From NCBI GenBank assembly GCA_027460525.1, contig JAPZAS010000006.1, forward strand, positions 1 to 64,000: a stretch of 64,000 nucleotides of DNA, in the 5' to 3' direction. Below are positions 4,878 through 14,891 of the stretch, in pieces (position 1 is the stretch's first letter; each line of letters begins with the position of its first letter). A program made the translations under genes and the position numbers. The notes below the pieces were generated by a model, which was given only the letters and a program-made list of their open reading frames with translations, was not told the DNA's origin and made no database searches. This DNA is from Candidatus Methanoperedens sp. Its GTDB lineage: Archaea; Halobacteriota; Methanosarcinia; Methanosarcinales; Methanoperedenaceae.

Positions 4878-6025
4878 TTATTTTATCCCCAAATCTACCT
4901 TTATACTGCTGAACTCCTCCAACGCAGATTCAAGGTTTTCTGCAATATCCCTTGCAATAACATCAGGGTCGGGGAGGTTCTCAGAATCTTCAAGACTTTC
5001 ATCCTTCAGCCAGAATATATCAAGGCTTAACTTATCCCTTGATACAAGTTCTTCATAAGTATATGCTCGCCATCTGCCGTCTTGTGTTTCCGGGGTCCAC
5101 GTGGGCTTTCTCTCGTGACGATTCTTCGGGTTGTAGCACTTGATGAAATCCAGGAGGTCTTCATATTTCAGCGTGTTTGTTTTGAGCGTAAAGTGCATAT
5201 TGGTTCTTAAATCGTATATCCAGAGCTTCTCAGTCCATGGCTTTTCGCTGGCATGTTTCCTGTCGAAGAAAAGCACGTTGGCTTTTACCCCTTGTGCGTA
5301 AAACACGCCTGTTGGAAGCCTCAAAAGAGTATGAACATCGCATTCCTGCAGCAGCTTTCTCCACACAGGCGAGCGGCGTTGTCAACTATCTCATACCCCC
5401 TGAACGTATCGAACCTGAGAAACTTTTTCTGCTCCTTGTCCATCGAATGCTTTGAGATATAATCATGCGCCGCCAGAAGGAAGCCGCCTGTGCCGCATGC
5501 AGGGTCGCAGACCGTCATTCCAGCCTGCGGTTTTATGACCTCGACCATGGCTTTGATTAGCGGTCTTGGGGTGAAATACTGTCCTGCGCCGCTCTTTATG
5601 TCCTCGGCGTTCTTCTGCAAAAGCCCCTCGTAAATCTCACCTTTAACATCAATGTCCAGCCCAACCCAGGTTTCATCATTGATTAGCTCGACTAAACGCT
5701 TAAGTTTCGCTGGATCCTGAATCCTATTCTGGGATTTTCTGAAAATAACGCCAAGCATACCTTTCCCTTTTCCCAGAGTCTCAAGGATGTGGCGGTAATG
5801 GGTTTCAAGTGCATCGCCATCTTTTTCAAGAAGGCTGTGCCAGTTAAGGTCTTTAGGGATTGTGGACGGCTTGTTGAAAGGCGGTTTTGTCTGCTCTTCA
5901 GCCATTTTCAAAAACAGAAGATAGGTCAACTGCTCCACATAATCGCCGTAGCTCACGCCGTCGTCGCGGAGCACATTGCAGTAGTTCCAGAGACGCTGCA
6001 CGATTGTTGATGATTCGTTTGCCAT
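4878..6025 (-). pseudogene. hsdM: Type I restriction-modification methyltransferase HsdM, internally deleted and frameshifted
   Basis: The N-terminal part (6025 down to about 5360) is a good HsdM: helical N-terminus, GQYFTPRPLIKAMVE and the SAM-binding DPACGTGGFL. It reads RGYEIVDNAARLC and then runs out of frame at 5321. The other frame (from about 5370 to 4878) resumes with RKLLQECDVHTLLRLPTG and continues to a normal C-terminus (DPDVIARDIAENLE). In intact HsdM about 100 residues lie between these points, including the catalytic NPPF motif; here they are gone and the frame is shifted. The remaining parts sum to about 380 aa against about 480-500 expected. The enzyme should be unable to methylate adenine unless the deletion is an assembly error. 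hsdS and hsdR upstream on the same strand look intact. Confidence 0.88.
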
Positions 6026-6121
6026 TTAAACCAGCCTCCGGATAGCTTCTAAAAAGGCTTTTGCAGAGCTTATTGCAACAGTAGCATCTTTTTCTTTGAC
6101 TTTTATCTTTTCCAAGTTCAT
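6026..6121 (-). pseudogene. 31-aa ORF between nucleotidyltransferase and hsdM, possible HEPN remnant
   Basis: A 31-codon frame begins with an ATGA overlap on the stop of the nucleotidyltransferase gene (ATG at 6121) and stops at 6026, directly abutting the hsdM start. It reads MNLEKIKVKEKDATVAISSA and then KAFLEAIRRLV. The charged lead plus an SAKxFLE helix resembles the first helix of HEPN-domain proteins, the usual partners encoded right after HTH-nucleotidyltransferase genes. The Rx4-6H active-site part is absent, so I read it as a truncated HEPN partner. It could equally be a small antitoxin-type peptide. Confidence 0.45.
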
Positions 6122-6675
6122 TCCACCACCGGTCTTGTTCCAAATAAAACAATCCCTTCAGTGATAACATCTATGTAAAAAGCTTTGTTCTTTTCAGCCT
6201 GTTCTTTCCATTCCGAAGGTGTGAATATGATTAAAGAGGTCTCTTTTCCTAAAAGTTCCGATAACCGCAGGTCTAATTTTTCCGCTGATAAAGAAATTGC
6301 AAGAAGGTCGATGTCGCTTGTTTCATCGTTTTCTCCTTTTGCAAAGCTGCCATAAAGAACCAGTGAACTTAACCCGGGAAGCCTTTCTTTCAGGAATTCT
6401 ACGATGCCTTTTTCCTCAAGCCAGGCAAGATTATAAGCTGTCTTCAGGTGTTTGAAGGCAGGGCTTGCCATGTTGGCTTTGTACAGTATCTGGTTTTTGA
6501 ATTCTTCCCTGACCAACAGCCTGTCCTGAACAAGCAGGTCAATAGCGCGTTTGACGGTCATCGGGCTGATATCCAGTATTCTGGAAGCTTCCCTGAGATA
6601 GTACCGCTCATATGGGTTCTTGATGAAAAGTTCGAGAACTTTTAATTGTGTAATTTTTTGATACAACTGTATCAT
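6118..6675 (-). CDS. Winged-helix plus minimal nucleotidyltransferase protein
   Basis: 185 aa. Residues 1-70 form a winged helix-turn-helix (FIKNPYERYYLREASRILD, then SPMTVKRAIDLL). Residues about 100-185 are a minimal nucleotidyltransferase (MNT) domain with the active-site motif GSFAKGENDETSDIDLLAIS (G-S-x10-D-x-D). MNT proteins paired with HEPN RNases act as antitoxins, some by AMP-ylating the HEPN partner; the HTH suggests self-regulation of the operon. The next frame downstream (6026-6121) begins by ATGA overlap and may be what remains of the HEPN partner. The AT-rich stretch just before the start (6676-6710), with two copies of ACAATTGTATCAT-like sequence, is a likely operator. Confidence 0.8.
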   Translation of the reverse strand: MIQLYQKITQLKVLELFIKNPYERYYLREASRILDISPMTVKRAIDLLVQDRLLVREEFKNQILYKANMASPAFKHLKTAYNLAWLEEKGIVEFLKERLPGLSSLVLYGSFAKGENDETSDIDLLAISLSAEKLDLRLSELLGKETSLIIFTPSEWKEQAEKNKAFYIDVITEGIVLFGTRPVVE

Positions 6676-6745: not shown

Positions 6746-7162
6746 TTAAGAGATATACTTCAAAATCTTCTTAACAAACTCCCGAATATCTTTCAGGTCT
6801 TCTGACATAATAATAAAAAGCCTTTTCGTGTCTATCTTGCCGTATCTGTGCACAAGGAGATTTCTAAACTGCGCCATCTCCTGAAGCTTTGAAGATAAAA
6901 CATGGTCTATAATTCCTTCTTCTTCAAGAACATTATAAATATCTTTGTAATCATCTGCGCGTCTGAAACCTCTTTCAGCTATTATGTGACTGCCTATGTC
7001 AAGACATGCCTCGATTGCTTCCTGCAATGAGTGTTTAGCAGCCTGAATATCCTTGAAGTTGCTTGAGAATGAATCGAATCCCTGTGACCTGATTTCTTCA
7101 ATGAGCTGAAGATTCTCATCAATGAGGTCAATCATGGCATTAATGACTTCGCTGCTTATCAT
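6746..7162 (-). CDS. hepT: HepT-like HEPN toxin (ribonuclease)
   Basis: 138 aa of the HEPN/DUF86 (HepT) family: helical throughout, with the catalytic Rx4-6H motif as RNLLVHRYGKID near residues 104-115. HepT proteins are RNases whose toxicity is blocked by MntA-type nucleotidyltransferases that modify a Tyr beside the active site (an RxxxxHxY arrangement, seen here as RNLLVHRY). The start ATG at 7162 overlaps the stop of the upstream mntA-like gene by four bases (ATGA), the classic layout of this module. Intact, and probably functional as a toxin-antitoxin pair within the restriction island. Confidence 0.88.
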   Translation of the reverse strand: MISSEVINAMIDLIDENLQLIEEIRSQGFDSFSSNFKDIQAAKHSLQEAIEACLDIGSHIIAERGFRRADDYKDIYNVLEEEGIIDHVLSSKLQEMAQFRNLLVHRYGKIDTKRLFIIMSEDLKDIREFVKKILKYIS

Positions 7163-7557
7163 ACTCCAAGCCTCGCTCGCCTTGCGGCATCGTACATTTC
7201 AAGGTGAGGTTTGAAATCGTAATATTGAGCTAAAGAGGAGGTTTCAAATTCTATTCGTTTTTTCTCGTCCTTGGAGTGCAGAAGCTTCCCGTACCTTAAT
7301 ACCTGGCTTTTAAATCTCAAGGTCGAGCCGTTTAGAACCCTCACATCAACTTTCTTTTTTTCAACCAGAGCCTTTTCGAGCTTTATCGCAAGCCTTGAAG
7401 GATATAAGGGGTCTTTTTCAAGGATATTTTCATCTTTTAAGTAAATAGCAATGTCAATGTCGCTTTTTTCGTCCTGAATGCCTTTTGCGTATGAGCCGAA
7501 AAGGTAAGCGAAGAGGACTTCATAATCTTTTTCCAGTACTCTTGTTATGTTTTCCAC
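7159..7557 (-). CDS. mntA: MntA-like nucleotidyltransferase antitoxin
   Basis: 132 aa. The MNT active site is GSYAKGIQDEKSDIDIAIYL near residues 21-40, then a third acidic residue in KKVDVRVL around residue 81. In characterised pairs MntA transfers AMP to HepT and so silences it. The gene leads the two-gene operon mntA-hepT; a perfect 9-bp inverted repeat about 60-80 bases upstream (7615-7635) may be its operator. The antitoxin role rests on family knowledge plus the adjacent HEPN gene. Confidence 0.87.
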   Translation of the reverse strand: MENITRVLEKDYEVLFAYLFGSYAKGIQDEKSDIDIAIYLKDENILEKDPLYPSRLAIKLEKALVEKKKVDVRVLNGSTLRFKSQVLRYGKLLHSKDEKKRIEFETSSLAQYYDFKPHLEMYDAARRARLGV

Positions 7558-7710: not shown

Positions 7711-9162
7711 TTAGCGCTTGCTCCTGCCTTTTTTGATTTCTAATATTTTCTGAAGGCGTATCTTCTCCAGCAGCACGCTTGCAGGCTCATCATTCGCATC
7801 CTGCGCAACAAGCTTTCCCTCGAACGCCTTTTTCAGTATGCTCTGCCGCAGCCGCCCTGCCTGCGCGAGGCTCTGCTCCACATTTCTTGCGACCTCATCC
7901 GCTACAGAGAGGCGGCGCTCGACATCGGCGACGATGCGGCGCTGCTCAGCGAGGGGAGGGAGAGGCAAGACAATTCTCTTAACAATACTTGTATTTAAAT
8001 TTGGTTGAGCTGCACCTTGATTTATCTGGCGAAGTTTCTTTGTTTGACTAAAAAGAAAAAAATACAAATACAATTTCAAAGTCTCTTCAAGACCTAACAA
8101 AGCAACAGAGCCGTCATTAATACAACCACTTATCAAAGTAATTTTTGGAACACCCAGAGTTGCACCACTATTTGTAAGCAAAAATGTTCCTTCATCAATA
8201 AATCTACTAGCTTTTTTACCTTCTTCGGTAACAAAATTTTCGACAGAAGTAAGATATATTTTTTTATCTTTTGTGATTTCTCCAACTGTAATCCATGGAA
8301 TGTTGCCTCCAAAATATTTTGGATTTCCTGCTGGACGAGGTGATGCTCCTCTTACAACTTCTGATAGCTGATCTATGTTCACCCAATGCCACCCCTCCGG
8401 CAGCGCAGACAAACCACTCATATCCGGCGCCGCTGGCTCTTTGTACTTCCCACCTTTGCTCTTTTCCCGCCGCTCCTTTAAGATGCGCGCCAGCAGCACA
8501 TCCGCAGGCTCATAATCGCGCCCCTCGGCTTTCACTAATTCAGCCTCGGTCGGCACAAGTTTACCCTCGCAGGCGGCTTTCAAGACTGACTGGCGGTAGA
8601 GCTTCAACTGCGCCTGCGTCTTTTTGAGCGCCGAAACGCCTGCGTCCAGTTTTGTGAAAAGCTCTTCGATTATCGTTACGATGCGGTGCTGTTCGGGGAG
8701 AGGGGGGAGGGGGATTTGAATTTGTTTTAACTTTGATGCATTGACATTAGGAATGGCTATACCAAGACTTTTTTCCGAGATAGAATCCCAATACAATGGA
8801 CTTTTTATGAAACATGCTAAATATTTTTCATCGATTAGAGGTCTAAACCTAATTAGATAGGAGGCAAATACAGCTTCTTTTGGATTCTTAATAAGATGAC
8901 TATAACCAACAGAACCAGCCCTTGAAATAATAATATCTCCATCTTTCAATAAGTATTTCTCTTTTTCAGGTGGTTCTTCCTTGCAAAATGGAACTGTACT
9001 CCAATCAATATTTCCTGAAGTTATGTCAGTAGTTCTCAACAAATGAAGTGATCCTTTTGATATCGCACTTGTCGTCCAACCGTATTGAGGGTCTAAACAG
9101 ACTTCCCCCAGCCTCGCCCACACCCAGCCTCCGGGGAGTTCAGGCAGTGCGCCCTCGCTCAT
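7711..9162 (-). CDS. hsdS: Type I restriction-modification specificity subunit HsdS
   Basis: 483 aa with the two-fold HsdS plan: TRD1 (from LPGGWVWARLGEVC), conserved helix 1 with IPLPPLPEQHRIV and a coiled coil (about 165-200), TRD2 (from LPEGWHWVNIDQL near residue 258), then the second conserved helix with LPLPPLAEQRRIV and a C-terminal coil ending in FEGKLVAQ. HsdS recognises a bipartite DNA target and docks two HsdM and two HsdR. Both halves look intact. Because hsdM is broken, HsdS has no obvious local methyltransferase partner. Its first 75 bases occur a second time at 9912-9986, beyond the inserted hicBA genes. Confidence 0.95.
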   Translation of the reverse strand: MSEGALPELPGGWVWARLGEVCLDPQYGWTTSAISKGSLHLLRTTDITSGNIDWSTVPFCKEEPPEKEKYLLKDGDIIISRAGSVGYSHLIKNPKEAVFASYLIRFRPLIDEKYLACFIKSPLYWDSISEKSLGIAIPNVNASKLKQIQIPLPPLPEQHRIVTIIEELFTKLDAGVSALKKTQAQLKLYRQSVLKAACEGKLVPTEAELVKAEGRDYEPADVLLARILKERREKSKGGKYKEPAAPDMSGLSALPEGWHWVNIDQLSEVVRGASPRPAGNPKYFGGNIPWITVGEITKDKKIYLTSVENFVTEEGKKASRFIDEGTFLLTNSGATLGVPKITLISGCINDGSVALLGLEETLKLYLYFFLFSQTKKLRQINQGAAQPNLNTSIVKRIVLPLPPLAEQRRIVADVERRLSVADEVARNVEQSLAQAGRLRQSILKKAFEGKLVAQDANDEPASVLLEKIRLQKILEIKKGRSKR

Positions 9163-10086: not shown

Positions 10087-10563
10087 TCATAATTGTTTCA
10101 TAAAGGAGATTCCTGGTATGGATTCTGCTGAGAAAGCAGGTTTGACTAATTCAGTATCATGAACATCCCACAGGCTCTGGAGAAAATTTGTTGGTACATA
10201 ATAGAACGACTGAGGCGGCTTAAAATCTTTAAAAATATTAAACGGGTCTATAGGCTCATGAAAACTATCGACATCACTAATTTCAATTGCAAACGCAACA
10301 TCAGAATTTTTGAAATATGCAAAAAAATCTTTTTTTGATATTCCGGCATTCTCAGAACATAGCTTCCATATCCTCTCCGGAGAATCCTTTAAGATTTGTT
10401 CAATCTCAAAAGCGGCAATGATTTTACTCACTGGCGAACAGGAATAAATATAGACCTTCTCTATGTCATTCCTTTTAAAAATTGACCTCCTGAACTCGTA
10501 TTTTTTTGTGCCTTTTACTATTTTCTCAGCATATTTAGGCTTAACTGATAGTAAAACGTTCAT
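10087..10563 (-). CDS. ASCH-like domain protein
   Basis: 158 aa. The N-terminus MNVLLSVKPKYAEKIVKGTK and following KYEFRR is the hallmark of ASCH-superfamily proteins (a PUA-like beta barrel predicted to bind RNA or modified nucleotides). It is followed by VYIYSCSPVSKIIAAFEIEQI, a typical second strand block. Start ATG 10563 is chosen because GGAGGG sits just upstream; a frame opening 30 bases earlier lacks this. The gene begins 23 bases inside the 3' end of the PIN-GNAT-EVE gene, so the two are translationally linked. The overlap suggests they work together, perhaps as regulator and effector. Function not established. Confidence 0.72.
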   Translation of the reverse strand: MNVLLSVKPKYAEKIVKGTKKYEFRRSIFKRNDIEKVYIYSCSPVSKIIAAFEIEQILKDSPERIWKLCSENAGISKKDFFAYFKNSDVAFAIEISDVDSFHEPIDPFNIFKDFKPPQSFYYVPTNFLQSLWDVHDTELVKPAFSAESIPGISFMKQL

Positions 10564-12037
10564 CCAGTTTCCCTCCTTTCTTGATCGCCACATACTGATT
10601 ATGATTTAATTCCATTATTGACTGCGGCGCATATTGTATTATTTTATGATTACGAAGATAATTTAAGTCCGGCGGATTTGGTAGATTAAGATGATGTCTG
10701 AAAAGAAGAACTAAAACAGGTTTTTGCGCCATATCCTTGATTTCGTCATAAAGATAAACGCTTCTTTGCCCCACAATTGCTGCTACCTTATCTGGCTGAT
10801 TTGTGTGAACGGGTTCTTGGTCAACAATTCCTATTGATGTTATCGCTTTCTGGTCATGAGAACGATAAAAAAGAAGAATGTCTCCCGGTCTTATTTTCGT
10901 GATTGCTGAATGCGAAAGATATGCCTTTTTAATGGCATTCCCCGGAATATTAATCTCAGAATAATCAGTAATTCTCATCTGGCGTTTCTTAAAATCCGGA
11001 AAAAGCCTATCATGATATTCAGGTATGATAGGGACTAAAAATTTTCTAATGCTTGGAGAGTCCTTAAAAGATGGATAAAATTTTTTCGCTAAATTCAACG
11101 ACGACAAATCATTTTCTTTCGGAATGAGCTTTTTAAGATAGACCTCCTCTTTTTCCTTCTTCCCTCTACGTTCTTCTAAAAAACCCACGAGTTCAAACCC
11201 AAAGTTCTCAATGAGCGGTATCAGCCGATCATTCTGTTTTCGATAATGGGTGAGAAACGTCTCAAAAATCTGGTTACCAATGCAGTATTGAAATGCCATT
11301 TTTAAAAAAAGCTCTCCCAGTTTAGAACCGGGTATATCGACTTTTAAGGTAGCAATCTTTAGCCTTTTAGCAGCTGTTATAGGAGGAGATGTCGGAATAG
11401 GCTCATCTTCCTCTTTCAACATCAATAGTCCTTTAATCATATCATTTTCATGATAAACCCAGCATTTTCTATCTTGTATTGAAACTTTTTTAAACCAATC
11501 CGTGAAATCCGGATAATCCTCTTTTAGAGAATCGAAAAATGGATCCTCTATCTTAAGGTTACGAACAAAATCTTCTTCTAAAAGTGGATGGCGTATTACT
11601 TTTCGTGCGTAAAGGTTCTTAAAGTAATCCAGCGCCGAATCAATGGACAGCGCGCGATCTTCAAGATTTGCTCGGACTGCTTTCTTCTGAAGCCCATAAT
11701 CTTCAGTAATTAAAAAATCAGCAGCATTTCTCTGGATTGCGAAAAGGATTTCATTATCGTTTATTTCATTGGAATTGGATGATACCCCCACAACTGATAA
11801 AAATTCATCAGTTGGTTTTGGAGGAGACTCTATTCGCGGATAACCCTCAATTTTTGATAAAATAACCTTTTTTCGTTGCTCATCTTTATCATTGTTTATA
11901 TCTTTCAATGATGCCGGATGAATGAATATATGATGCCCATGCTCACGAAATATCTTAAGCAAGTCCTGAAGATTTTTAGATAACTCCTTTGGGTCTTCAA
12001 CATGAATCAGGATATTTGTATCAAAAATTACTTTCAT
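10541..12037 (-). CDS. PIN-GNAT-EVE/ASCH-like fusion protein
   Basis: 498 aa with three apparent domains. Residues 1-140: PIN nuclease, beginning MKVIFDTNILIHVEDP, with NEINDNEILFAI and ADFLITEDYGL giving the acidic residues of the active site. Residues about 165-310: a GNAT-like acetyltransferase region (WVYHENDMIKGLLMLKEE, then KLGELFLKMAFQY and a final FGFELVGFLEE). Residues about 350-498: a PUA-like EVE/ASCH barrel (KIRPGDILLFYRSHDQKAIT). I take ATG 12037 as start, since the open frame upstream has no PIN similarity. It sits between hsdR and an ASCH-like gene within a type I restriction locus. It is probably an RNA-targeting conflict or toxin-type protein; substrate unknown. Confidence 0.75.
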   Translation of the reverse strand: MKVIFDTNILIHVEDPKELSKNLQDLLKIFREHGHHIFIHPASLKDINNDKDEQRKKVILSKIEGYPRIESPPKPTDEFLSVVGVSSNSNEINDNEILFAIQRNAADFLITEDYGLQKKAVRANLEDRALSIDSALDYFKNLYARKVIRHPLLEEDFVRNLKIEDPFFDSLKEDYPDFTDWFKKVSIQDRKCWVYHENDMIKGLLMLKEEDEPIPTSPPITAAKRLKIATLKVDIPGSKLGELFLKMAFQYCIGNQIFETFLTHYRKQNDRLIPLIENFGFELVGFLEERRGKKEKEEVYLKKLIPKENDLSSLNLAKKFYPSFKDSPSIRKFLVPIIPEYHDRLFPDFKKRQMRITDYSEINIPGNAIKKAYLSHSAITKIRPGDILLFYRSHDQKAITSIGIVDQEPVHTNQPDKVAAIVGQRSVYLYDEIKDMAQKPVLVLLFRHHLNLPNPPDLNYLRNHKIIQYAPQSIMELNHNQYVAIKKGGKLDERFTIS

Positions 12038-12095: not shown

Positions 12096-14891
12096 TCATG
12101 CCACCAGCGCCTCATTTAGCTCTTCTAAGATATTATCCAATCCCTTGCCGAACAGTTGATAAGCCCTAACAGCCCCTCCCTTCTGGTTAAAAGGCACGTT
12201 CTCAAAGTCCCCTATCTCAATGCCAAGCGACGAAGCGATATGGTCTTTTATCATTACAAGCCACTCCACCTGCGCCTCTGTGAACCTCACCCCCGCCCTC
12301 TCCTGCTCCGCGCGCCACCTCTCAAAGCGCTGGTTCACCGTTTCAGGGAAAGGCTCAAGTATATCGCTCTTTCCCGCGGCATAGCGTATCAAAGAAATGA
12401 TGTCTGTCAGAAGCTTCTGCGCCCCCGCGCCCCTTACTTTTGATATATCCAGTTGTTCATATGCCTGCCAGAGCAACTCAGGCGTAAGACGATAAGGCGG
12501 CTTCTTAATCGCCTCTGCAATCTCTCTTATCTCCTCGTAAGTAAGGTGGCGACTGCCATAGGGCTTGCTGTAAATGATCTGGAGCGCCGTAATTTCATCC
12601 CTGTTCTCCTCTATGAACTTTTTAAAGGTTTCAACGATGCTGCGCGCCTTTATTTTTGCCTGCTCGTCAAAACCTGAGAAGCTCACAGCGTCCTTACTCA
12701 CAGTGTCAATGATCTGCTCGTTTCTTTTCTTGATGTCAATAATGGCATTCCTGAGTTTCGGAACCTCAAAAGGCGCACAGGCGCTCTTTGCAAGCTCCGC
12801 CCCAGCTTTCTTGATCTCATCCCCTGTCGGCGTCTCTGTATTGAAAATCTCCTTTGCCTTCTCGAGCTTCTTATCGGGGTCAACCGCATCCAGGAGGTTG
12901 TTAATGATCTCTTTTAATGATTTCCCATCCGCAGCTTTCTGGATCTCTGACCTGTCTTTTTCTTCGATTTCCCTGTCCATCCTCGCAAGCCTTCCTGCTA
13001 GCGAGGTAATGGTGTCCTCATCCTTGTTACCAAGTGCTACTGACATTATGAGCTTATCAAACGCCACGCTCTTCTTTCGCTCAAGTGGGCGCGAATCTGT
13101 CTTATCGTTCTCGCATACGCCCACGGCATCCACTATCATAAAATGCGTTTTGGTGGAAGCGCCGGGAGTAATGGCTTTAAAATCCGTGGAAGAAATAGTA
13201 CGCGTCCCGCGCCCTTTCATCTGTTCAAAAAGCACACGTGATTTGACATCGCGCATGAACAGCAGGCATTCAAGCGGTTTGATATCCGTGCCTGTTGATA
13301 TCATATCTACGGTCACTGCTATGCGCGGGTTGTAGGAATTGCGGAAGCTTGCTATCAGGTCTTCAGGCTTTGCGCCTTCGGTTTTATACGTGATCTTCTT
13401 GCAGAACTCATTACCCTTCCCGAACTCCTCTCTTATGATATGTACAATATCCTCAGCATGTGAATCATCCTTGGCAAACACAAGGGTCTTTGGGATTTCC
13501 GCCCTTCCTGGGAATATCTCGGTAAAGAGCTTATCCCTGAACGTCCTGACAACAGTCCGTATCTGGTCTTGCGCCACAACGCTTCGGTCAAGTTGGTCAG
13601 GGGCATATTCAAAAGGCTCGTCCAGTTGCTCCCAACGCACCTTTCTTGTGAGCTTATCCCTTTTGTCCACGAAGTCCCCGGCTTCGACCTTACTTCCTTT
13701 TTCAGTGATATCGGTTTTAATGCGGTACACTTCATAGCCCACATTCACGCCGTCCGCAACCGCGCGCTCATGGCTGTATTCCATGACAAGGTTCTGGTTA
13801 AAAAATCCCAGCGTTTGCTTGGATGGAGTGGCTGTTAACCCGATCAGGAATGCATCAAAATATTCAAGCACCTGCCGCCAGACTTTGTATATGGAGCGGT
13901 GACACTCGTCAGTAACGATAAAATCAAAAGTCTCGATAGGTATTTGAGGATTGTAGGAAACATCCTTTTCAGTACCATCCGGGGAGATCTCAAAAAGTGA
14001 AGGCTCTTCGTTTTCGGGTTCAAACTCTGTCTCTCCCCTGAGCATCGAATAGAGTCTCTGGATCGTGGTGATACAAACCTTGCTAACAGGATCGATAGTA
14101 TTTGATGTCAGATGCTGGACATTATAAAGCTCTGTAAACTTCCTGCCGTCGTCAGGTGTAACATACTGCTGGAACTCTTTTTTTGTCTGGCGCCCCAGGT
14201 TGCTCCTGTCCACTAAAAAGAGCACCCTTTTTGCACCTGCGAATTTTATCAGGCGGTAAATGAAACTCACGGCTGTATAAGTCTTGCCGCTTCCTGTTGC
14301 CATCTGGATAAGTGCCCGTGGTCTTGCTTCTGAAAAGGATTGTTCAAGGTTCTGGATAGCTTCAAACTGGCAATCTCTCAAACCTTCTTTGTTGAGAGGT
14401 ATTGTTGATGGCATCTTTTTGAGACTTGTCCTGAGAGTCTCCTTCTGCAAGCTCAATTCCTTAAGGGTTTCAGGCTTATGAAAAGCAAAAACCCTTCGCG
14501 AGCGCGCATCCGGGTCTCTTGTATCCCTGAAAAGAGTTTCTATGCCTGTGCTTTCATAGGAAAAGGGAAGAGGTTCCTGAACATGAGGGAGTCCTTCCGG
14601 AATTCCAGTTAAGTATTTTTCAGATTGTTCAGCCACTCCACTTAACGTTGTCCCTTCAGGCTTTGCCTCTACCACTCCTACGGCCTCTCTATCAACAAAA
14701 TTTAAATAATCAGCAGCGCCGGATTTTAAGGGAAATTCACGAACCGCTACGCCAAGAGAAGCTCCCAGATTTAAATCACGCAAATCCTGGATATTCCAAC
14801 CTGCCGCTTCAAGTAGTTGGTCGATCCGTTGCCTTGCTTTTTCTTCAGGTTTCATCCTTACGACCCGTTTATAAGCATCAAGTGTCTTCAT
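12096..14891 (-). CDS. hsdR: Type I restriction-modification motor/nuclease subunit HsdR
   Basis: 931 aa of the EcoEI-like R-subunit type. N-terminal nuclease core: AADYLNFVDREAVGVVEAKP (the D...ExK residues). Superfamily 2 helicase motifs: QMATGSGKTYTAVSF (I), VTDECHRSIY (II, DECH), LTATPSK (III), and MISTGTDIKPLECLLFM with QMKGRGTR (V/VI). A helical C-terminus of about 200 residues is the usual HsdM/HsdS docking region. It translocates DNA and cuts far from the recognition site, but only within the complex with HsdS and HsdM. With HsdM disrupted downstream it may be inert. It looks full length and heads the leftward run of island genes. Confidence 0.95.
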   Translation of the reverse strand: MKTLDAYKRVVRMKPEEKARQRIDQLLEAAGWNIQDLRDLNLGASLGVAVREFPLKSGAADYLNFVDREAVGVVEAKPEGTTLSGVAEQSEKYLTGIPEGLPHVQEPLPFSYESTGIETLFRDTRDPDARSRRVFAFHKPETLKELSLQKETLRTSLKKMPSTIPLNKEGLRDCQFEAIQNLEQSFSEARPRALIQMATGSGKTYTAVSFIYRLIKFAGAKRVLFLVDRSNLGRQTKKEFQQYVTPDDGRKFTELYNVQHLTSNTIDPVSKVCITTIQRLYSMLRGETEFEPENEEPSLFEISPDGTEKDVSYNPQIPIETFDFIVTDECHRSIYKVWRQVLEYFDAFLIGLTATPSKQTLGFFNQNLVMEYSHERAVADGVNVGYEVYRIKTDITEKGSKVEAGDFVDKRDKLTRKVRWEQLDEPFEYAPDQLDRSVVAQDQIRTVVRTFRDKLFTEIFPGRAEIPKTLVFAKDDSHAEDIVHIIREEFGKGNEFCKKITYKTEGAKPEDLIASFRNSYNPRIAVTVDMISTGTDIKPLECLLFMRDVKSRVLFEQMKGRGTRTISSTDFKAITPGASTKTHFMIVDAVGVCENDKTDSRPLERKKSVAFDKLIMSVALGNKDEDTITSLAGRLARMDREIEEKDRSEIQKAADGKSLKEIINNLLDAVDPDKKLEKAKEIFNTETPTGDEIKKAGAELAKSACAPFEVPKLRNAIIDIKKRNEQIIDTVSKDAVSFSGFDEQAKIKARSIVETFKKFIEENRDEITALQIIYSKPYGSRHLTYEEIREIAEAIKKPPYRLTPELLWQAYEQLDISKVRGAGAQKLLTDIISLIRYAAGKSDILEPFPETVNQRFERWRAEQERAGVRFTEAQVEWLVMIKDHIASSLGIEIGDFENVPFNQKGGAVRAYQLFGKGLDNILEELNEALVA

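Follow-up and report, generated by a model that had tools for sequence, protein, structure and literature searches.

A PIN-GNAT-EVE protein and its ASCH partner in an archaeal type I restriction operon: a probable toxin-antitoxin-type defence module

What is a protein with PIN, GNAT and EVE domains, followed by an overlapping gene for an ASCH protein, doing inside a type I restriction-modification (RM) operon? The question is raised by the window, the whole stretch of 64,000 nucleotides analysed here, which comes from a Candidatus Methanoperedens assembly of 2.44 Mb in 37 contigs. The two proteins are called T and A below.

Archaeal operons with (PIN)-GNAT-EVE and ASCH proteins near HsdRMS are described by Bell, Wolf and Koonin (2020; PMC7641849). 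The passages of that paper on these operons predict roles in toxin-antitoxin systems or virus-host conflict, none of the modules being experimentally characterised. The domain combination is already known, the window locus is another member, and its function is a prediction. An earlier note on this DNA had known of no functional description of the combination; that statement has to be withdrawn, since Bell et al. (PMC7641849) describe the combination and predict its function in the passages concerned, and PADLOC models PDC-M11A and PDC-M11B exist.

The two proteins and their operon

The genes and domains of the locus are as follows.

10541-12037, minus strand: T, a 498-aa PIN-GNAT-EVE protein (open reading frame, domain matches, PADLOC PDC-M11A)
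11603-12037, minus strand: predicted PIN domain, T residues 1-145 (family PIN matches, invariant acids)
11120-11596, minus strand: GNAT-fold domain, T residues about 148-306, or 145-306 in the AlphaFold model (model, fold match)
10544-11074, minus strand: EVE (PUA-like) region, T residues about 322-498 (Pfam matches; low-confidence model)
10087-10563, minus strand: A, a 158-aa ASCH protein, probable antitoxin or partner (domain match, model, PADLOC PDC-M11B)
10541-10563, minus strand: overlap of 23 nt between the 3' end of T and the 5' end of A (coordinates)
12096-14891, minus strand: hsdR, type I restriction subunit with an EcoEI-type C-terminus, upstream of T
7711-9162, minus strand: hsdS, type I specificity subunit, downstream of A
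7159-7557 and 6746-7162, minus strand: MntA-HepT type VII toxin-antitoxin pair, in the hsd operon between hsdS and hsdM
6118-6675, minus strand: nucleotidyltransferase gene with weak HTH matches, a guest of the hsd operon
5321-6025 and 4878-5366 (span 4878-6025), minus strand: hsdM in two frames, lacking about 110 aa, the NPPF motif among them

Read from upstream, the order is hsdR, T, A, hsdS, MntA-HepT, nucleotidyltransferase and broken hsdM. The nearest homologue of named source belongs to a Candidatus Methanoperedens MAG and is 82% identical. The earlier note had placed the pair between hsdR and hsdS, with an ASCH protein starting 23 bases inside the 3' end of T, and had read T as a fusion of PIN, GNAT and EVE. 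The coordinates bear out the placement and the overlap. Its domain reading was right as well, for PIN and EVE through family matches and for GNAT through the model.

The N-terminus of T is assigned to the PIN domains by its family. The window protein taken alone gives no PIN match at E 0.1, nor does its N-terminal domain at 0.01. Among the N-terminal domains of the T family, PIN_3 is matched in 16 of 22, PIN_12 in 6 and PIN in 2. The residues D6, N8, D94, T111 and D113 are invariant in all 44 aligned full-length T proteins (36 archaeal-type and 8 bacterial). T thus shows the features of PIN RNases, namely the conserved acids D6, D94 and D113 together with the PIN_3 and PIN_12 family matches. 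By sequence profile the best PIN entry in the PDB reaches E 0.12, which is not significant, and the matches in a structure search of the T model are filled by GNATs, so that the PIN call rests on sequence.

In the AlphaFold model the GNAT fold is clear. Residues 145-306 match NatD, PaiA and other GNATs, the best being NatD (Z 14.8, rmsd 3.2 over 148 residues), and a profile match to plant Naa50 has an E-value of 0.0005. The reference for judging such a domain is the canonical GNAT CoA loop and the catalytic Tyr of motif B. Measured against it, the GNAT of T is unusual, with both places altered. At position 239, where the CoA loop would have its second glycine, 42 of 44 T proteins carry Lys; Gly 241 is kept in 44 of 44. 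Position 276, where the motif-B Tyr would stand, is Ile, Leu or Val in all 44, and Phe in all three phage GNAT-EVE proteins.

The C-terminus of T is EVE-like as judged by family matches. Pfam EVE scores 19.2 bits against the window protein (E 0.0013), under the cut-off of 23, and is found at E 0.01 or better in 17 of 27 T homologues. The AlphaFold model of this part, made from a shallow alignment of 11 rows, has low confidence and gives no fold support. Structure prediction, which the earlier note had proposed as a check, therefore upholds the GNAT fold in T and the ASCH fold in A and leaves the EVE part at low confidence.

The model of A has a mean pLDDT of 86 and superposes on ZmASCH (PDB 5guq) with Z 18.3 and rmsd 1.7 over 131 residues, at 28% identity. 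According to the passages on it in PMC5615036, ZmASCH is a nucleic-acid-binding protein with weak cleavage activity on single-stranded RNA; it cut ssRNA and not ssDNA, dsDNA or dsRNA, its nucleic-acid binding being broader. Counterparts of its Tyr47 and Ser128, with the match in numbering inferred, are Y40 and S119 of A, invariant in nine of nine rows including P0002. The residue aligned with Lys53 varies in the A family. The same passages (PMC5615036) mention no toxin.

Pairing, spread and loss of the two genes

That T and A work as one unit is suggested by their constant pairing and frozen overlap. An intact T locus was defined by a frame of at least 440 aa, or at least 340 aa for GNAT-EVE proteins, which gives 48 loci. 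An adjacent A on the same strand is present at 47 of them. At the exception, L045, T is intact and an A is found some 2.2 kb further downstream. With the homologous first residue of A taken as its start, 39 of the 47 adjacent pairs overlap by exactly 23 nt. These comprise all 36 pairs from archaea or archaeal viruses and all three from two Lactobacillus-group phages and a coliphage. None of the eight bacterial plasmid pairs has it; there A lies upstream or the overlap is another.

The distances of T and A are also correlated (r 0.87, n 48; 0 of 5000 permutations as high). Within the hsd clade (n 10), T tracks HsdR at least as well (r 0.88) as it tracks A (r 0.78). Shared descent thus explains much of the co-divergence of T and A, and may explain it alone.

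Full-length T is conserved across the sample of the phylum, which excludes a chance origin. T is matched in 42 of 392 sampled genomes of the phylum and A in 54, some of the latter matches being weak, with E up to 0.001. By tblastn, T occurs in 33 of 72,556 plasmid records, with 80% or more of its length covered in 18, and in 16 of 50,697 phage records, with such coverage in two (both psiM100); eight of the 16 are near-identical coliphage records, and RefSeq duplicates are also among them. The PIN form is further encoded at five loci in IMG/VR viral contigs. The GNAT-EVE/ASCH pair of coliphage PhiR47_2 is present in 274 of 5426 complete E. coli genomes, always at 99% identity or more, in a search that finds near matches only. 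The family is widespread, yet the literature search found no experimental account of its function (toxicity, binding or cleavage), and for GNAT-EVE it found only Bell et al. relevant.

Phage genomes show A more often than T. In the phage records, many of them near-copies, A is present wherever T is matched (16 of 16), and 11 of the 27 with A give no T match by tblastn. An example can be found in psiM2 (L089). It keeps an A whose residues 1-117 are 96% identical to their counterparts in prophage psiM100 (L071) and whose frame changes close to the end; of T it keeps the last 43 codons, 100% identical to psiM100. The psiM100 record labels the part missing in psiM2 as "inserted fragment IFa", which ends inside T. 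The T remnant suggests a deletion in the psiM2 line and not an insert in psiM100.

Seven loci that lie clear of contig edges (L005, L043, L049, L073, L089, L097 and L102) have a broken T next to an A match, and no intact T beside a broken A was seen among the loci examined. Breaks of one gene thus hit T in seven of seven cases, with a probability of 0.20 by chance since T is about four times longer than A. With seven loci that have A and no T (L090-L096) added, the count is 14 of 14 and the chance 0.04; the ASCH genes of these loci may be other ASCH proteins. The bias of breaks toward T lends weak support to toxin-antitoxin polarity. Breaks recur near residue 201 (L048, L049, L102), and a programmed frameshift there was rejected because the sequence contexts differ.

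A few further observations concern the neighbours of the pair. In Lactobacillus prophage Lj965 (L079:3283-3858) the GNAT-EVE/ASCH pair directly follows four annotated tRNA genes; tRNA genes beside T were rejected as a clue to its target, the 42 other scanned sources having at most two each. In Streptococcus phage MismyG (L091), outside that scan, one annotated tRNA-Tyr is near the ASCH gene, and an annotated 88-aa GNAT piece adjoins that gene (1691-2369), possibly a T remnant missed by tblastn. A third gene recurs beside T and A (L004:5676-6935, L045:10353-11618, L046:10627-11898, L069:7164-8861). It joins a GNAT, a middle part with a VEVKD motif that looks restriction-endonuclease-like by eye, and a C-terminal ASCH-like part, and at L069 it is fused to A. 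At L065:202-1104, A carries a fused C-terminal region in which HEPN matches weakly and an RNRVAH motif occurs.

The link to type I restriction

HsdS lies within 10 kb of T at 15 of 44 loci, against 1.6 expected from the density of HsdS; none of 200,000 simulations, with related loci treated as independent, reached 15. The other 29 loci showed no HsdS in that range, so that the comparison with other genomes proposed in the earlier note finds its restriction link at part of the loci. L048 and L060 have hsdM and hsdR with no HsdS among the matches listed, and the T-A pair also occurs in prophages and plasmids without RM genes in the stretches seen. The linkage of T to RM is real but optional. The 29 loci and the RM-free prophage and plasmid pairs make it unlikely that RM sensing is the general job of the pair. 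The earlier note's proposal of a sensor for modified DNA/RNA or for a failed restriction system is a conjecture.

In a quick tree of T, one supported set of 14 rows takes in most of the hsd-embedded proteins; 11 of its rows come from hsd operons. Within this set, L050 is without hsd genes for about 9 kb around it, L003 sits at the edge of a contig, and L002 has no hsd genes upstream and a contig that ends 0.5 kb downstream. Five of the 15 HsdS-linked loci are outside the set (G160, G202, G237, G310 and G360). At seven loci of one clade (L053-L059), A is the N-terminal domain of HsdS itself. Such fusions offer a concrete, testable connection of a type I RM complex with a protein that probably attacks RNA; PrrC is the established case of such a connection. 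Two side observations belong here. Between hsdR and T, two hsd operons of the related family f2 carry a schlafen-like gene of AlbA_2/COG2865 type, recognised by eye (L053:11117-12460, L057:11005-12372). At L048:9106-10158, T residues 1-201 run in-frame into an HsdS-like remnant and hsdR is split in two, a collapsed hsd-T locus.

The enrichment of HsdS, the 11 hsd operons of the 14-row set, the ASCH-HsdS fusions and the seat of T inside a type I RM operon would all fit a guard modelled on PrrC, which its linked type I RM enzyme silences (PMC2610378, in the passages concerned). Under such a guard T would stay latent as long as the Hsd complex restrains it, with A or the ASCH-HsdS fusion as the link, and a virus that disables restriction would free it. 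The window itself may speak against this. Compared with L051 and L004, its hsdM has lost about 110 aa including NPPF and lies in two frames, yet hsdR, hsdS, T and A are open. This loss may be an assembly error, and T might be under another control. If the loss is real, the methylase of the operon would be dead while T and A stay open; control by Hsd then seems dispensable, and A by itself is apparently sufficient to hold T in check here. The 29 loci with no HsdS in the 10-kb range, L050 and L002 also count against the guard, which is unlikely.

A narrower version is confined to archaea. There the antitoxin of an RNA-cutting PIN-GNAT-EVE protein would have become a domain of HsdS, and damage to HsdS or to the RM system would free the effector, as in a trip-wire of the PrrC type; the orphan phage ASCH genes of psiM2, Oenococcus, Fusobacterium and Streptococcus would then be escape antitoxins. 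This is quite a speculative proposal, and rather improbable as it stands.

The RM link and the ASCH-HsdS fusions can also be read in terms of DNA. Bell et al. (PMC7641849) cite an earlier proposal of Iyer et al. that the GNAT modifies DNA bases: it would acetylate a base, and EVE and ASCH would read the modified DNA for the RM enzyme. Bell et al. argue, in the part of the text concerned, that ASCH binds modified DNA, and HTH-ASCH-like genes stand beside T in plasmids. The invariant PIN domain points to RNA, however, the CoA loop and Tyr position of the GNAT are altered, and ZmASCH cut ssRNA and not DNA or dsRNA even though its binding is wider (PMC5615036). Modification of DNA is very unlikely to be what T does.

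Least probable is that PIN-GNAT-EVE proteins protect the cell by degrading aminoacyl-tRNAs acetylated by a phage GNAT-EVE, as Bell et al. suggest (PMC7641849): the PIN part is covered in only 2 of 16 phage T records (psiM100) and full-length T is common in genomes of the phylum, but PIN forms occur in prophage psiM100 and the five IMG/VR contigs too, and the archaeal PIN forms share the A partner and the 23-nt overlap with the three phage GNAT-EVE forms, which suggests one mode.

The preferred reading and known systems

The pair is probably a toxin-antitoxin-type defence module of the PDC-M11 or GevTA kind, in which T would be an RNA-targeting, growth-arresting effector neutralised by A and sometimes tethered to an RM complex. 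This reading builds on the domain make-up of T and the enrichment near RM genes. Counted in its favour are the pairing at 47 of 48 loci, the 23-nt overlap, the correlation of 0.87, the PIN acids kept in 44 of 44 proteins, A without T in phages and the remnant in psiM2. The PV340567 naming of GevT and GevA and the PADLOC models PDC-M11A/B also count for it, as does, by analogy, the binding of nucleic acids by the nearest solved structure to A. Counted against it are the weakness of the break bias, shared descent, the eight plasmid pairs arranged otherwise and L045.

In the mechanism that we infer, the EVE part of T, perhaps with the GNAT fold, would pick the RNA, with tRNA or some other modified RNA as the most plausible target, and the cut itself would be made by the PIN domain, so that translation stops. 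The GNAT and EVE parts would serve in the choice of target or in a second step. A, presumably co-translated through the 23-nt overlap, would hold T in check, either by binding to it directly or by covering the RNA that T targets. The trigger that sets T free would be that A is lost or is captured by a phage product. Among the RM-embedded members the module would ride in the hsd operon as a favoured seat. A physical tie between A and HsdS exists in some archaea, and this fusion suggests that the restriction complex holds the leash there, as for PrrC (PMC2610378, in the passages concerned).

Among known systems, the operons of Bell et al. (PMC7641849) are nearest. They share with the window the domain order, the ASCH partner, the vicinity of type I RM genes and an ASCH-HsdS fusion, reported there in Methanohalophilus. 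The 23-nt overlap, the residue conservation and the psiM2 remnant were measured here and go beyond that account, psiM being absent from the relevant text of Bell et al., which speaks of overlap in other connections. The passages of a BREX paper (PMC12839542) that bear on such systems do not describe the PIN-GNAT-EVE/ASCH combination.

The window pair also belongs to PADLOC PDC-M11, with adjacent genes and full-length matches (PDC-M11A to T at 8e-150, residues 1-497; PDC-M11B to A at 5e-50, residues 1-130). Phage relatives of T and A match the same two models. PDC-M11 is a candidate-defence model name only, and the literature search found no paper for it.

For Escherichia phage PhiR47_2 (PV340567), the depositors name the GNAT-EVE/ASCH pair GevT toxin and GevA antitoxin; no paper behind these names was among the literature matches listed. 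The coliphage pair shares with the window the GNAT-EVE and ASCH proteins, the 23-nt overlap and the PDC-M11 match. It differs in having no PIN, in its lambdoid phage setting and in showing no RM genes in the stretch seen.

The type II GNAT toxins AtaT and TacT share the GNAT fold with T. They have a canonical CoA loop and motif-B Tyr, which T has not, and the absence of the usual catalytic Tyr counts against AtaT/TacT-like chemistry. The antitoxin of these toxins, where the source consulted treats it, is a DUF1778 (ribbon-helix-helix) protein, whereas the adjacent partner of T is an ASCH protein.

PrrC, to our knowledge, has neither a PIN-GNAT-EVE architecture nor an ASCH partner. The anticodon nuclease PrrC of EcoprrI has ABC-ATPase motifs and an ACNase triad, according to the parts of PMC2610378 that describe it. 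What it shares with T is its place: a gene that attacks RNA, lodged inside a type I RM locus.
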